NCBI RefSeq assembly: GCF_027532185.1
Contig: NZ_JAPZSV010000007.1
Coordinates: forward strand, 62,001-126,000
Direction: 5' to 3'
Source: Hylemonella sp.
GTDB taxonomy: Bacteria > Pseudomonadota > Gammaproteobacteria > Burkholderiales > Burkholderiaceae_C
DNA length: 64,000 nt
Below, one piece after another: positions 5,968 to 26,264 of this stretch. A model generated the notes under the pieces. That model saw nothing but the letters and a program-made list of their open reading frames with translations, was not told where the DNA came from and searched no databases. The translations under genes were made by a program, and so were the position numbers. The stretch's first letter is position 1. Every line of letters starts with the position of its first letter.

Positions 5968-6783
5968 ATGAACGAACGCATCGCCATCATCGGCGGCGGC
6001 AACATGGCCAGCGCCATCATCGGCGGCCTGATCAAGAAAGGCCTGCCCGTCGCCCGCATCGAGGTCATCGACACCAACCCCGAAGCACGCCAGCGCCTCA
6101 AGGACAACTACGGCCTCGTGGCCCACGCCGAGCCCGGTGCTTTCCTGAAAGACTTCCCCATCGTGATCTGGGCCGTCAAGCCCCAGACCTTCAGGGACGC
6201 TGCCCAGCCCGCCGCGCCGCATGTGAAAGAGGCCCTGCACATGAGCGTGGCCGCCGGCATCCCCACCGACAGCATCAAGCGCTGGCTGGGTGTGGAACGC
6301 ATCGTGCGCAGCATGCCCAACACCCCGGCCCTGATCGGCAAGGGCGTCACCGGCCTGTATGCCCGCGACGGCGTCACCGGGCAGGACCGCAAGCACATCG
6401 AGCACATCGCCTCGGTCATGGGCGAATTCGTCTGGGTCGAGCGCGAAGACCTGCTCAACGCCGTCACCGCCCTCTCGGGCTCGGGCCCGGCCTACGTTTT
6501 CTATTTCCTCGAAGCCATGACGACAGCCGGCGTGGAGATGGGCCTCACGGCCGAACAGGCCTACCAGCTTGCCGTGGAGACCTTCCGCGGCGCCGGTGAG
6601 CTCGCGAAGTTTTCCGACGAGCCGCCCGAGGTACTACGTCAGCGCGTCACGTCCAAGGGCGGCACCACGCATGCGGCCATCACGAGCATGGATGCCAGCA
6701 ACGTCAAGGCCCTGTTTGCTCAGGCCCTGCACGCGGCCGAGCGGCGCTCCGAGGAACTCGGTGCCGAGTTCGGCAAGGACTGA
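5968..6783 (+). CDS. proC: Pyrroline-5-carboxylate reductase
   Basis: 271 residues, normal for ProC. It makes proline from pyrroline-5-carboxylate with NAD(P)H. The Rossmann motif [17 protein letters not shown] is at residues 5-21. The C-terminal dimer domain carries the family block [17 protein letters not shown] and later [19 protein letters not shown] hexamer around 5900 could be its -10 box, given the divergent glpK start only 93 bases away. Confidence 0.96.
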
Positions 6784-6790
6784 GTCCGGC

Positions 6791-6988
6791 ATGCACGAAC
6801 GGCGCGGTTACCTGATTTCCATCGTCTGCGTGGCACTGTTCTTCGGCATCGCCATCGCCGGCGAAGCCGTACTCGGTAGCCCCCTAACCACAATCCTGCT
6901 TTGGATCGTGGGCATCGTTGGGTTCCTGGCCCAGCTCGATGCCATGCAGATCCTGAATCTGGGACGGCTCCTGAAACGTCGTCGCTGA
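6791..6988 (+). CDS. Small two-helix membrane protein of unknown function
   Basis: 65 residues starting MHERRGYLISIVCVALFFG. It has two hydrophobic segments, about residues 8-26 and 30-48, and ends in the basic tail LLKRRR. It begins seven bases after the proC stop on the same strand, so it is probably co-transcribed with proC. It ends 12 bases before the convergent ubiA stop. No family was recognised. The coding call rests on tight spacing after proC and a clean hydrophobic pattern. Confidence 0.65.
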   Translation: MHERRGYLISIVCVALFFGIAIAGEAVLGSPLTTILLWIVGIVGFLAQLDAMQILNLGRLLKRRR

Positions 6989-23908: not shown

Positions 23909-23935
23909 TGTAAGAAACCGGCGCCCCGCGCCGAC
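23909..23935 (+). promoter_or_regulatory. Candidate ECF-sigma promoter of the thioredoxin-ccdA-sigma operon
   Basis: TGTAAG (23909-23914) and CGAC (23932-23935) are 17 bases apart, and the -10 side reads GCGCCGAC. The same two elements, 16 bases apart, precede the Met-rich peptide gene at 26239-26264. The layout resembles ECF promoters with a GTAA-type -35 and a CG-type -10. The start codon is about 53 bases downstream. This is a pattern seen at two loci, not an experimentally known site. Confidence 0.5.
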
Positions 23936-23988
23936 CCATGGACAGGCGGGGCCGGTGGTCGGCCCCGCATCTCAACGGAGACCCGTCC

Positions 23989-24372
23989 ATGAATTCCCTG
24001 CGCCATGTCCTGGCCATGCTGGCCCTGCTGCTGAGTTTCGGCAGCGCCCAGGCCCTCAACATCCAGCCCTACAGCCCCGCCGCGCTGCAGGCCGCACAAC
24101 AGGCCGGCCAGCCCGTGGCCCTGCACTTCCATGCCGACTGGTGCCCCACCTGCCGCGCGCAGGAAAAAGTGTTCCAGTCCCTCAAGGGTAATGCCAGCCT
24201 GCCGCTGACCCTGCTGGTGGTGAATTACGACAAGGAGCGCGAGCTCAAGCGCGCGCTCAAGGTGCGCGCCCAGTCCACGCTCATCGTCTACCGCGGCAGC
24301 CAGGAGACGCGCCGCTCGGGCGGCGAGACCGAAGCCGCCGCGCTGCGTGATGCGCTGAAGTCCGCCCTCTGA
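23989..24372 (+). CDS. Periplasmic thioredoxin-like protein
   Basis: 127 residues. A signal peptide (residues 1-22, cleavage after AQA) precedes a thioredoxin fold with the redox motif WCPTC, Cys 52 and Cys 55. GGAG lies eight bases before the ATG. It is the first of four tightly linked genes; the next encodes a CcdA-like membrane electron carrier, which probably keeps this protein reduced. A small GGGGCCG/CGGCCCC hairpin sits in its leader at 23948-23966. The target is unknown; reduction of a periplasmic oxidised protein is the likely role. Confidence 0.85.
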   Translation: MNSLRHVLAMLALLLSFGSAQALNIQPYSPAALQAAQQAGQPVALHFHADWCPTCRAQEKVFQSLKGNASLPLTLLVVNYDKERELKRALKVRAQSTLIVYRGSQETRRSGGETEAAALRDALKSAL

Positions 24373-24385
24373 GCCGGAGCCCGCG

Positions 24386-25117
24386 ATGACCGACATCACC
24401 CTCTCCCATCTCGGCCTCAGCATGGTGGCCGGCAGCCTGACCACGCTTTCGCCCTGTGTCTTTCCGCTGCTGCCCCTGGTGCTGGGCGGCGCCGTGCAGT
24501 CCAACCCGCTTGCGCCGCTGGCCATGGGCGCGGGCATGACGGCCTCGTTCGCGGGCATCGGCCTGCTGCTGGGGGCACTGGGCCCCGCGCTGGGTGTGGA
24601 CGCCGACAGCGTGCGCACCCTGGGCGCGGCCATGCTGATCGCCTTCGGCCTGGTGATGCTGGTGCCCGTGCTTAATGAACGCTTCACGCAGGCGGTGATG
24701 CCCATTGCCAGCAGCGCGCAGGCCGCGAGCAGCCGGCTCAACGCCGGCTCGCTGCTGGGCGCGCTGGCGCTCGGTGGTCTGCTGGGCCTGGTGTGGAGTC
24801 CCTGCTCGGGCCCCTTGCTGGCCTCGGCCATGACGCTGGTGGCCAGCGAGGGTGGGGCCGGGCGCGGCGCCTTCATCCTGGGCTTGTTCGGCCTGGGCGC
24901 GGCCGTGCCGCTGATGGTGGCGGCCTATGCCTCGCGCAGCGGCTTCGTGCGCGCACGTGGCTGGGTGCTGACCCATGCGGAGACGCTGAAGAAGGTCTTC
25001 GGCGGACTGATCGTGGCCGCCGGTGTGGCCATCCTCACCGGTGCCGACAAGTGGCTTGAAGCGCAGGTGCTCGACGTGCTGCCCGACTCATGGGTGCGGC
25101 TCACGACTCTGTTCTAA
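24386..25117 (+). CDS. CcdA/DsbD-type transmembrane thiol-electron carrier
   Basis: 243 residues with about six membrane helices. The two CcdA half-repeats each carry a Ser-Pro-Cys motif: TLSPCVFPLLPLVLGG near residue 20 and VWSPCSGPLLAS near residue 135. CcdA proteins move electrons from cytoplasmic thioredoxin across the membrane to periplasmic thiol proteins. It is 13 bases after the periplasmic thioredoxin gene and seven bases before the sigma factor gene. A cytochrome c maturation role is less likely because no ccm gene is near. Confidence 0.88.
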   Translation: MTDITLSHLGLSMVAGSLTTLSPCVFPLLPLVLGGAVQSNPLAPLAMGAGMTASFAGIGLLLGALGPALGVDADSVRTLGAAMLIAFGLVMLVPVLNERFTQAVMPIASSAQAASSRLNAGSLLGALALGGLLGLVWSPCSGPLLASAMTLVASEGGAGRGAFILGLFGLGAAVPLMVAAYASRSGFVRARGWVLTHAETLKKVFGGLIVAAGVAILTGADKWLEAQVLDVLPDSWVRLTTLF

Positions 25118-25124
25118 TGATTCG

Positions 25125-25703
25125 ATGCCCGACGCCGACGCCCTGGCCGCCCTGCGCCCCGACTTGCTGCGCTTTGCACGCCTGCAGCTGCGCGATGCCG
25201 CCGCAGCCGAAGACGTGGTGCAGGAAGCGCTGCTGGCCGCGCTCAACAACGCGCAGCAGTTCGCCGGACGCGCGGCCATGAAGACCTGGGTCTTCGGCAT
25301 CCTCAAGCACAAGATCGTGGACCTGATCCGCCTGCAGAGCCGCAGCACCAATGTCTCGGCACTCTCGGCCGAGGAGGAAAGCATGGACCAGACCTTCGAG
25401 ACCCTGTTCCGCGAGAGCGGCCACTGGACCCCGACGGCACGCCCGCAAAGCTGGGGCGACCCCGAGGCCTGCCTGCGCCAGCAGCATTTCTGGGACGTGT
25501 TCGACGCTTGCCTTCATCACCTGCCCGAGAACACCGCGCGCGTCTTCATGATGCGCGAGTTCCTGGACTTCGAAACACCCGAGGTCTGCCAGACCCTGGG
25601 CATCACCGTGAGCAACTGCAACGTCATCCTGCACCGCGCGCGCAATGCGCTGCGCCTGTGCCTGCAGCGGGGCTGGTTTGCCGGGGAGACCGCACCATGC
25701 TGA
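25125..25703 (+). CDS. ECF-type sigma factor
   Basis: 192 residues. Region 2 (residues about 10-75) has the sigma-70 helix pattern LLRFARLQLRDAAAAEDVVQ and KTWVFGILKHKIVDLIR. Region 4 (about 130-185) has LPENTARVFMMREF, then an HTH ending in NVILHRARNALRLCLQ. It starts seven bases after the ccdA-like stop, and the anti-sigma gene overlaps its last seven bases. It probably directs transcription of its own operon and of the Met-rich peptide gene, judged from shared promoter-like elements. Confidence 0.9.
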   Translation: MPDADALAALRPDLLRFARLQLRDAAAAEDVVQEALLAALNNAQQFAGRAAMKTWVFGILKHKIVDLIRLQSRSTNVSALSAEEESMDQTFETLFRESGHWTPTARPQSWGDPEACLRQQHFWDVFDACLHHLPENTARVFMMREFLDFETPEVCQTLGITVSNCNVILHRARNALRLCLQRGWFAGETAPC

Positions 25704-25885
25704 GCTGCAAGGAAGTCAACCGCCTGCTCTCCGAGGCGCAGGACCGCCCGCTGGCGCTGCGCGAACGCCTGCCGCTGCGCCTGCACCTGGCCATGTGCCA
25801 GGGCTGCCGCAACTTCGAGAAGCAGCTCGATTTTCTGCGCCAGGCCAGCCGCGGCTATTTCCGCCGCGACGACGATCCATCATGA
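25697..25885 (+). CDS. Small zinc-finger anti-sigma factor (zf-HC2 type)
   Basis: 62 residues starting MLSCKEVNRLLSEAQDRPL. The zinc-binding anti-sigma motif is H30-x3-C34-x2-C37, with C4 as the likely fourth ligand. There is no membrane segment, so it acts in the cytoplasm. Zinc anti-sigmas of this type release their sigma factor when thiols are oxidised. It overlaps the sigma gene by seven bases, showing translational coupling. A cytoplasmic anti-sigma of this size is known as MseR in Neisseria meningitidis, whose regulon includes methionine sulfoxide reductase (from memory). Confidence 0.85.
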   Translation: MLSCKEVNRLLSEAQDRPLALRERLPLRLHLAMCQGCRNFEKQLDFLRQASRGYFRRDDDPS

Positions 25886-25917
25886 AAAACGGCGCCGGGG
25901 CAGGGCCTCGGCGCCGT
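25885..25917 (-). terminator. Rho-independent terminator for the Met-rich peptide gene
   Basis: Stem ACGGCGCCG (25889-25897) pairs perfectly with CGGCGCCGT (25909-25917) around an 11-base loop. On the minus strand the hairpin is followed by TTTTTC. It starts at the end of the convergent anti-sigma gene and may also end that transcript, though without a T-run on that side. Confidence 0.85.
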
Positions 25918-25934
25918 GGTCCCGGGTACGGGAC

Positions 25935-26165
25935 TTACTTCATCATCTTGTCGGACTTCATTTTGTCGTCCTTCATCATGCCGTCTTTCTTATCGGACTT
26001 CATCATCTTGTCGTCCTTCATCATGCTGTCCTTCTTGTCGGACTTCATGGCCTTCTCGCCCGCCATCTTGTCGTCCTTCATCATCTTGTCGGACTTCATC
26101 TCGGCCTGGGCGGCACCTAGACCCAGGGCCATGGCGGCCAGCACCAGCAAAGACTTCAGCTTCAT
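25935..26165 (-). CDS. Secreted Met/Lys/Asp-rich MxKDx repeat peptide
   Basis: 76 residues. A signal peptide (1-21, cleavage after AQA) precedes a 55-residue mature part built of KSDKMMKDDKM-like units, with 14 methionines, many Lys and Asp, and no aromatic residues or Cys. It matches the described pentapeptide MxKDx repeat type. AGGAG six bases before the ATG at 26165 favours this start over the ATG two codons earlier. It is convergent with the sigma/anti-sigma operon. Surface methionines could consume hypochlorous acid or bind soft metals; this role is inferred. Confidence 0.9.
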   Translation of the reverse strand: MKLKSLLVLAAMALGLGAAQAEMKSDKMMKDDKMAGEKAMKSDKKDSMMKDDKMMKSDKKDGMMKDDKMKSDKMMK

Positions 26166-26238
26166 CGTCATCTCCTGATCAGGTGGTGCCTGACAAGATA
26201 GCCAGGCACAGACCGCGCGTACGCCGGCCTGAACATCA

Positions 26239-26264
26239 GTCGGCGCAAGAGCGAAAAGCTTACA
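26239..26264 (-). promoter_or_regulatory. Candidate ECF-sigma promoter of the Met-rich peptide gene
   Basis: On the minus strand TGTAAG (26264-26259) is followed after 16 bases by CGAC, within GCGCCGAC (26246-26239). The same pair occurs upstream of the thioredoxin-ccdA-sigma operon at 23909-23935. It lies about 75 bases before the peptide start codon. Shared elements at the two transcription units suggest one regulon driven by the adjacent ECF sigma factor. Confidence 0.55.

Follow-up and report, generated by a model that had tools for sequence, protein, structure and literature searches.

The sigma operon and its convergent peptide gene

The 64,000-nucleotide stretch of Hylemonella sp. analysed here (contig NZ_JAPZSV010000007.1, positions 62,001 to 126,000; hereafter the window) comes from a genome of 3.33 Mb in 13 contigs. 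Downstream of tgt it carries genes for a thioredoxin, a CcdA-like membrane carrier, an extracytoplasmic function (ECF) sigma factor and a small zinc anti-sigma factor, in that order, and convergent to these lies a gene for a secreted, methionine-rich peptide (Table 1). We consider it reasonably probable that these genes, together with msrPQ elsewhere in the genome, form a regulon responding to thiol and thioether damage in the envelope, governed by a sigma/zinc-anti-sigma pair of the MseR/HrsE type.

The four co-oriented genes extend over 23989-25885, with successive gaps of 13 nt and 7 nt and a final 7-nt overlap between the sigma and anti-sigma genes, an arrangement that fits a single operon. 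A first-pass annotation, made from the sequence alone, had described this operon and a convergent gene for a secreted peptide of 55 mature residues with 14 methionines; all of these genes were located as described, the operon products with profile scores above their cut-offs. The span proposed for the whole module, 23909-26264, does contain the genes, although both of its ends are the limits of promoter sites (the start of the site before the thioredoxin operon and the end of the site before the peptide gene) and not the ends of genes.

Table 1. Features of the sigma operon and the convergent peptide gene, in window coordinates.
Feature	Position	Strand	Basis
Predicted sigma-dependent promoter of the thioredoxin operon, TGTAAG-N17-CGAC	23909..23935	+	53 nt before the thioredoxin ATG
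Thioredoxin-fold protein, secreted, WCPTC, 127 aa	23989..24372	+	PF00085, 44.7 bits (cut-off 23.5)
CcdA/DsbD-like membrane electron carrier, 243 aa, two Cys	24386..25117	+	PF02683, 58.6 bits (cut-off 27.1)
ECF sigma factor, TIGR02943 family, 192 aa	25125..25703	+	259.5 bits (cut-off 162.2)
Zinc anti-sigma factor, 62 aa, C4-X25-H30-X3-C34-X2-C37	25697..25885	+	NF052368, 82.1 bits (cut-off 50)
Strong hairpins between the convergent genes	25886..25934	.	0/200 shuffles as stable in either window
Secreted Met-rich, Cys-free peptide, 76 aa	25935..26165	-	composition, G+C at third codon positions (GC3) 0.91, AGGAG before the start codon
Predicted sigma-dependent promoter of the peptide gene, TGTAAG-N16-CGAC	26239..26264	-	73 nt before the peptide ATG

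The anti-sigma factor is assigned to the MseR/HrsE type by its NF052368 score and by the pattern C/H-X23-26-H-X3-C-X2-C that defines the zinc anti-sigma (ZAS) motif (PMC7907618). Its residues C4, C34 and C37 carry the same numbers as Cys4, Cys34 and Cys37 of meningococcal MseR, which are reported to matter for that protein (PMC2893595). With both profiles above their cut-offs and the ZAS residues present, the parallel with the MseR system drawn in the first pass holds. Among 119 relatives of the sigma factor, 80 loci were retained, with flanks of up to 4 kb that are shorter near contig ends. An anti-sigma match adjoins the sigma gene in 80/80 of these loci, and a reading frame with the ZAS pattern lies on the sigma strand in 80/80, so that the pairing is more than chance.

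The cysteines of the thioredoxin WCPTC motif are Cys52 and Cys55. The CcdA-like carrier passes the PF02683 test, and its two cysteines, Cys24 in SPCVFP and Cys140 in SPCSGP, lie in proline-rich motifs as expected; we take them to be the active pair. The mature form predicted for the peptide has 14 Met, 18 Lys and 12 Asp among its 55 residues, with 0 Cys and 0 His; signal peptides and cleavage sites, here and for the thioredoxin, were assigned by eye. Between the convergent genes, folding is strong on both strands, with z of -4.74 on the minus strand (25875-25934) and -5.64 on the plus strand (25886-25945). The longer hairpin is followed by UUUUU on the minus strand and may therefore terminate the peptide transcript. 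A simple promoter and terminator scan did not list the intergenic hairpin at 25886-25934 and was otherwise uninformative.

The five genes were also considered as one conserved module, a notion that we rejected: matches to the thioredoxin occur at 4/80 sigma loci, to the CcdA-like carrier at 3/80 and to the peptide at 0/80. As a separate observation, a metagenome-assembled genome of Dechloromonas aromatica (L011) has two exact TGTAAG/CGAC sites upstream of its sigma gene, one of them immediately 5' of a gene for a thioredoxin (57% identical). This gene is followed directly by sigma, CcdA being absent, and links thioredoxin with sigma outside the genus.

A predicted promoter type shared with msrPQ

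The pattern TGTAAG-N16/17-CGAC was sought through the whole 3.33-Mb genome and occurs at three sites, which precede the thioredoxin operon, the peptide gene and, on contig C7, msrPQ, where the site stands 50 nt before msrP. MsrP scores 476.1 bits with NF003767 (cut-off 207) and msrQ is the next gene (NF003831, 171 against 130). The expectation that a methionine sulfoxide reductase would be found elsewhere under the same promoter is thus borne out, as judged by the promoter site. The genome search proposed for that purpose was positive for msrP and negative for msrA and msrB: the single MsrA and single MsrB of the genome have no TGTAAG/CGAC site in their loci and, to the eye, no signal peptide, and were set aside as partner reductases. 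By an after-the-fact estimate, the chance that a random site falls, in the correct orientation, no more than 100 nt upstream of one of the three msr genes is about 4.5e-5.

MsrP receives its electrons through the membrane partner MsrQ, and MsrPQ is not known to need thioredoxin. Since the msrQ gene lies beside msrP, electrons for repair are more likely to come from MsrQ than from CcdA and thioredoxin, and the earlier suggestion that the latter two supply electrons for repair of the peptide is unlikely to apply to MsrP. Going by its site alone, msrPQ brings a periplasmic reductase for methionine sulfoxide under the promoter type of the sigma operon, as in the sigmaE/MseR regulon. The promoters share the GTAAG of the -35 element and the spacing with those of Neisseria sigmaE (consensus GTMAGBWTT-N12/13-CGTCTAAH; PMC2893595), yet the -10 element reads CGAC instead of CGTC.

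Within the genus, 26 mutually related genomes were compared, the source genome included. The sigma factor was found in 13/26 genomes, and in 8/15 of those at least 90% complete; a TGTAAG/CGAC site precedes the sigma operon in all 13. The thioredoxin and CcdA genes stand before sigma in five of these 13. MsrP is encoded by 25/26 genomes, and an exact site is present at position -49 or -50 relative to msrP in 12/13 genomes with sigma as against 1/12 in which sigma was not found (Fisher p 3.3e-5, related genomes being treated as independent), a comparison that is weakened by the incompleteness of genomes in the sigma-not-found group (n=13), six of which are at 70-86% completeness. The sole sigma-not-found genome with an exact msrP site (G022) is 85% complete.

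Three further genomes in which sigma was not found carry imperfect copies of the site, differing from the pattern by one or two nucleotides, at the place that the msrP site normally takes (L141, L145 and L146, from G021, G001 and G011), which perhaps reflect promoter decay after loss of sigma. In G004, the exception to the -49/-50 rule, sigma and msrP lie next to each other in divergent orientation, with one site facing each. At this locus (L149), a Met-rich open reading frame of 32 codons, with no evident signal peptide, lies between the msrP-facing site and msrP; it is possibly a remnant of a Met-rich peptide gene.

The bufferin-type operon of a sister species

The same promoter type is also found before operons of another kind. 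Ten genomes of the genus hold both sigma and a match to the modifying enzyme MNIO (PF05114), and the site precedes the MNIO operon in 9/10; in these nine, a gene lying between site and MNIO was recognised by eye as that of a Cys-rich precursor with a signal peptide. The MNIO operons of G004, G002 and G003 carry TGTAACC...CGAA sites instead, of the type reported for Caulobacter sigmaF (PMC3511200), sigma not being found in G002 and G003, and the MNIO locus of G021 has neither kind of site. Overall, 13/26 genomes of the genus have an MNIO match; the source genome has 0. The Met-rich peptide itself lacks two marks of a bufferin: its predicted mature part contains no Cys, and no MNIO match accompanies it in the genome.

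In a sister species (G017; locus L004, on the same contig as G017:C53), a bufferin-type operon lies between the anti-sigma and PIG-L genes, which is the slot taken by the Met-rich peptide in the source genome; at L002 and L003 that slot is empty. The operon comprises genes for the precursor, an AhpC/TSA-like protein, MNIO and a DUF2063-like protein, all except MNIO named by eye, and the precursor has Cys blocks around a MKGSGMKDKKMD stretch. Upstream of the peptide gene, 43 nt are 86% identical to the region upstream of the L004 precursor. We aligned the peptide gene with the bufferin-type precursors of G017, G020, G008 and G023, using 500 shuffles per alignment. Shuffles scoring as well numbered, in that order, 0, 1, 0 and 1 for the promoter core, 2, 4, 8 and 83 for the leader, 24, 106, 81 and 17 for the signal part, and 0, 1, 6 and 9 for the coding core, the cores being low-complexity runs of Lys, Met and Asp codons.

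In the sister species it is a Cys-rich operon of the bufferin type that has this slot, behind a related promoter, so that the peptide would probably serve as bufferins do, with no modifying enzyme. It may have descended from a bufferin precursor. The first pass had named a metal-binding role as its main alternative and had overlooked the bufferin link; that alternative gains weight from the occurrence of the same promoter type, and once the same slot, with Cys-rich MNIO-type operons.

Several observations extend this picture. Between precursor and MNIO in L004, an AhpC/TSA-like gene, so named by eye, occupies 6371-6906 of the minus strand. A second TGTAAG/CGAC site precedes a TlpA-like thioredoxin gene (by eye) at L123, L124 and L126 (G013, G014 and G007); standing just upstream of the bufferin-type operon, this gene is a further thioredoxin-fold candidate for the regulon. 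In a genome of another genus (G033, L097, at about 698-1963 of the reverse complement), Met repeats of the MXKDX type are joined to a Cys core that by eye is DUF2282-like, and this chimeric precursor stands between a TlpA-like fragment upstream and an MNIO gene downstream. Antoine et al. report oxidored_molybd and ferric-reductase genes in a few Buf_EGKCG clusters (PMC12452194).

Proposed role and competing explanations

The regulon that we favour would work as follows. An oxidant or a thiophilic metal would disrupt the Cys3His zinc site of the cytoplasmic 62-residue anti-sigma factor and so free the sigma factor, which is predicted from the promoter sites to transcribe its own thioredoxin/CcdA operon, the Met-rich peptide and msrPQ. 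In the periplasm, each peptide would offer 14 thioether sulfurs to oxidants resembling hypochlorous acid, and it may additionally bind Cu(I). With electrons from MsrQ, MsrP would reduce the resulting sulfoxides and allow the peptide to be reused. Thioredoxin and CcdA would make up a separate branch, passing electrons from cytoplasmic thiols to cysteines oxidised in the periplasm.

Such a system is a variant of the known MseR-type regulons, notable mainly for a Met-rich peptide in the place of the sister's bufferin operon. With Neisseria sigmaE/MseR and Haemophilus RpoE2/HrsE it shares the kind of sigma factor and small zinc anti-sigma factor, the GTAAG -35 element and the spacing, as well as control of a methionine sulfoxide reductase of the periplasm. 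Haemophilus RpoE2, held by the 67-aa HrsE, is reported to control msrAB and a cluster with DUF692-type, DUF2063 and DoxX genes (PMC7907618), and this bufferin-type cluster has its counterpart in relatives of the source genome. The reductase is MsrAB in Neisseria and Haemophilus, whereas here it is MsrPQ, a molybdenum enzyme; the -10 element of the source is CGAC instead of CGTC; and the source operon adds thioredoxin and CcdA and has the Met-rich peptide where the sister species has its bufferin-type cluster. Further parallels are Brucella BcrXQP, under BcrS/AbcS, and Azospira MrpX, under SigF/NrsF, in which a secreted Met-rich peptide and an enzyme of the MsrPQ/YedYZ type likewise come under one ECF sigma factor (PMC8315932). 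Their anti-sigma factors are of another class, AbcS having predicted transmembrane helices (PMC8315932), as opposed to the small zinc protein of the source. Among the matches listed from the titles and abstract openings of the open-licence literature, none describes MsrPQ together with a sigma factor of the MseR type, or a bufferin slot taken by a Met-rich peptide.

Several points weigh against the regulon as we propose it. The reversed control pattern has 7 sites in the genome, more than the 3 of the real one, so that the positions of the sites, and not their number, are informative; and the msrP link was noticed only after the search. Outside the genus the evidence is mixed. There, 13 sigma-bearing genomes were tried from among the 80 loci, 9 of them with MsrP, and up to 10 matches were scored in each 320-nt region. 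In favour, 5/9 regions upstream of msrP hold a match of at least 9/10, three of them exact (L008, L024 and L041), as against 12/900 mononucleotide shuffles. On the other side, the remaining 4/9 score only 7 or 8, and 9/10 was reached by 8/208 same-locus windows of 320 nt, true sites included; at L193 the MsrP match starts inside the gene, so that the upstream window is partly coding. At only 3/73 loci outside the genus (L011, L012 and L014) is the sigma gene preceded, on its own strand, by an exact site, and no 320-nt region ahead of the sigma matches there scores above 8/10, even where msrP has a site (L008, L024 and L041). The regulon is thus well supported in the genus but beyond it only suggested. 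No homologue of the peptide was detected in the 25 other genomes of the genus or in a further 398 genomes sampled from the family, by a search insensitive to low-complexity peptides that flagged neither an MXKDX peptide in G001 nor the Met-rich frame of G004; with the peptide detected in one genome only, selection on it cannot be shown. In meningococci, oxidative stimuli are reported to have left sigmaE expression unaltered (PMC2893595). Finally, oxidant and copper roles of the peptide are inseparable by sequence.

The last point gives room to an explanation that we hold to be somewhat unlikely, namely that the peptide is mainly a periplasmic buffer for Cu(I) or other soft metals, a Cys-free substitute for a bufferin, with MsrPQ included in the regulon as metal-binding methionines need to be kept reduced. 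The slot that it shares with the bufferin-type operon of G017, and the related promoter region, speak for this explanation, as does the lack of an MNIO match in the source genome. Bufferins are reported to chelate copper (PMC12452194); in E. coli, msrPQ is co-regulated with a copper pump and MsrP repairs the methionines of CusF (PMC9302797); and Caulobacter sigmaF, a single ECF sigma factor, controls two DUF2282/DUF692 operons together with YedY/MsrP (PMC3511200), although from a GTAACC-N16-CGAA promoter and with a negative regulator of the DUF1109/NrsF type. Conversely, the peptide offers no Cys or His ligands, the related Haemophilus sigma factor with its zinc anti-sigma factor is raised by hypochlorous acid and hydrogen peroxide (PMC7907618), and the Met-rich peptide of Azospira is reported to scavenge hypochlorite through its own oxidation (cited in PMC8315932). 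Bufferin or Buf_EGKCG (HvfA-like) operons resemble the source locus, by way of the sister species, in slot, promoter region and a secreted, Lys-rich, low-complexity peptide; they differ from it in the cysteines, the MNIO and the partner genes, of which none stands alongside the source peptide. It is tempting to speculate that here a Cys-rich, MNIO-modified buffer has been swapped, in its own slot and behind its own promoter, for an unmodified Met polymer kept reduced by MsrPQ, an idea that we put forward tentatively. If it is true, one sigma switch would deliver thioether buffers or modified-thiol buffers interchangeably, as the MKGSGMKDKKMD stretch amid the Cys blocks of the sister precursor and the Met/Cys chimera of G033 suggest.

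Two other explanations appear far less probable. A chance neighbourhood, in which the peptide gene is a recent arrival or a composition-driven reading frame beside the sigma operon and outside its regulon, would account for the absence of detected relatives in the genus and at the 80 sigma loci, and for a slot that is variable and twice empty. It is improbable, given that one of only three promoter sites in the genome precedes the peptide gene; that this site and the leader can be aligned with their counterparts at the bufferin-type gene which fills the slot in G017; that the gene has a ribosome-binding site, a signal-like N-terminus and a hairpin; and that a Met-rich frame recurs at the sigma/msrP junction of G004. 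Equally improbable, in our estimation, is a true MrpX/MXKDX system with CcdA and thioredoxin as the electron source for peptide repair. A secreted Met-rich peptide and a periplasmic reductase do fall within one predicted regulon, and in a family sample of 150 genomes MXKDX peptides lie no more than 1.5 kb from a YedY-like enzyme in 10/10 genomes with scores above the cut-off. However, the source peptide scores 12.6 bits with TIGR02953, for which the cut-off is 41, so that MXKDX/MrpX membership was rejected, and the source genome has no TIGR02953 match at E 0.001. The first-pass comparison with MrpX is not borne out by this score or by the position of msrPQ, which is on another contig and hence in no shared operon. 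The enzyme behind the source promoter is MsrP with an adjoining MsrQ, which is not known to need thioredoxin, and within the genus thioredoxin and CcdA accompany sigma far less regularly (5/13) than does the msrP site (12/13).

The regulon that we favour would be of wider interest for the means by which the periplasm is guarded, since a single sigma factor seems, within one genus, to drive small peptides of either of two chemically distinct kinds, the Cys-based bufferins or the Met-rich peptides, and in one case the two kinds occupy an identical slot. As the promoter type also precedes genes for a methionine sulfoxide reductase, it becomes testable whether the two kinds do the same job and whether oxidant, copper or both are the signal. 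Within the genus, TGTAAG-N16/17-CGAC provides a promoter signature with which more members of the regulon may be found.

Other Met-rich sequences were seen as well. A crude Met threshold returned one reading frame each at L012, L059 and L064, which by eye are MAMAMA runs or read unlike the peptide, and were discarded. The YedY-like enzymes near the ten MXKDX peptides (L087-L096) are 28-31% identical to MsrP. At L087, L088, L090 and L093 the gene order is cytochrome b561-like protein, enzyme and MXKDX peptide, and at L090 an exported-looking MsrA comes next.

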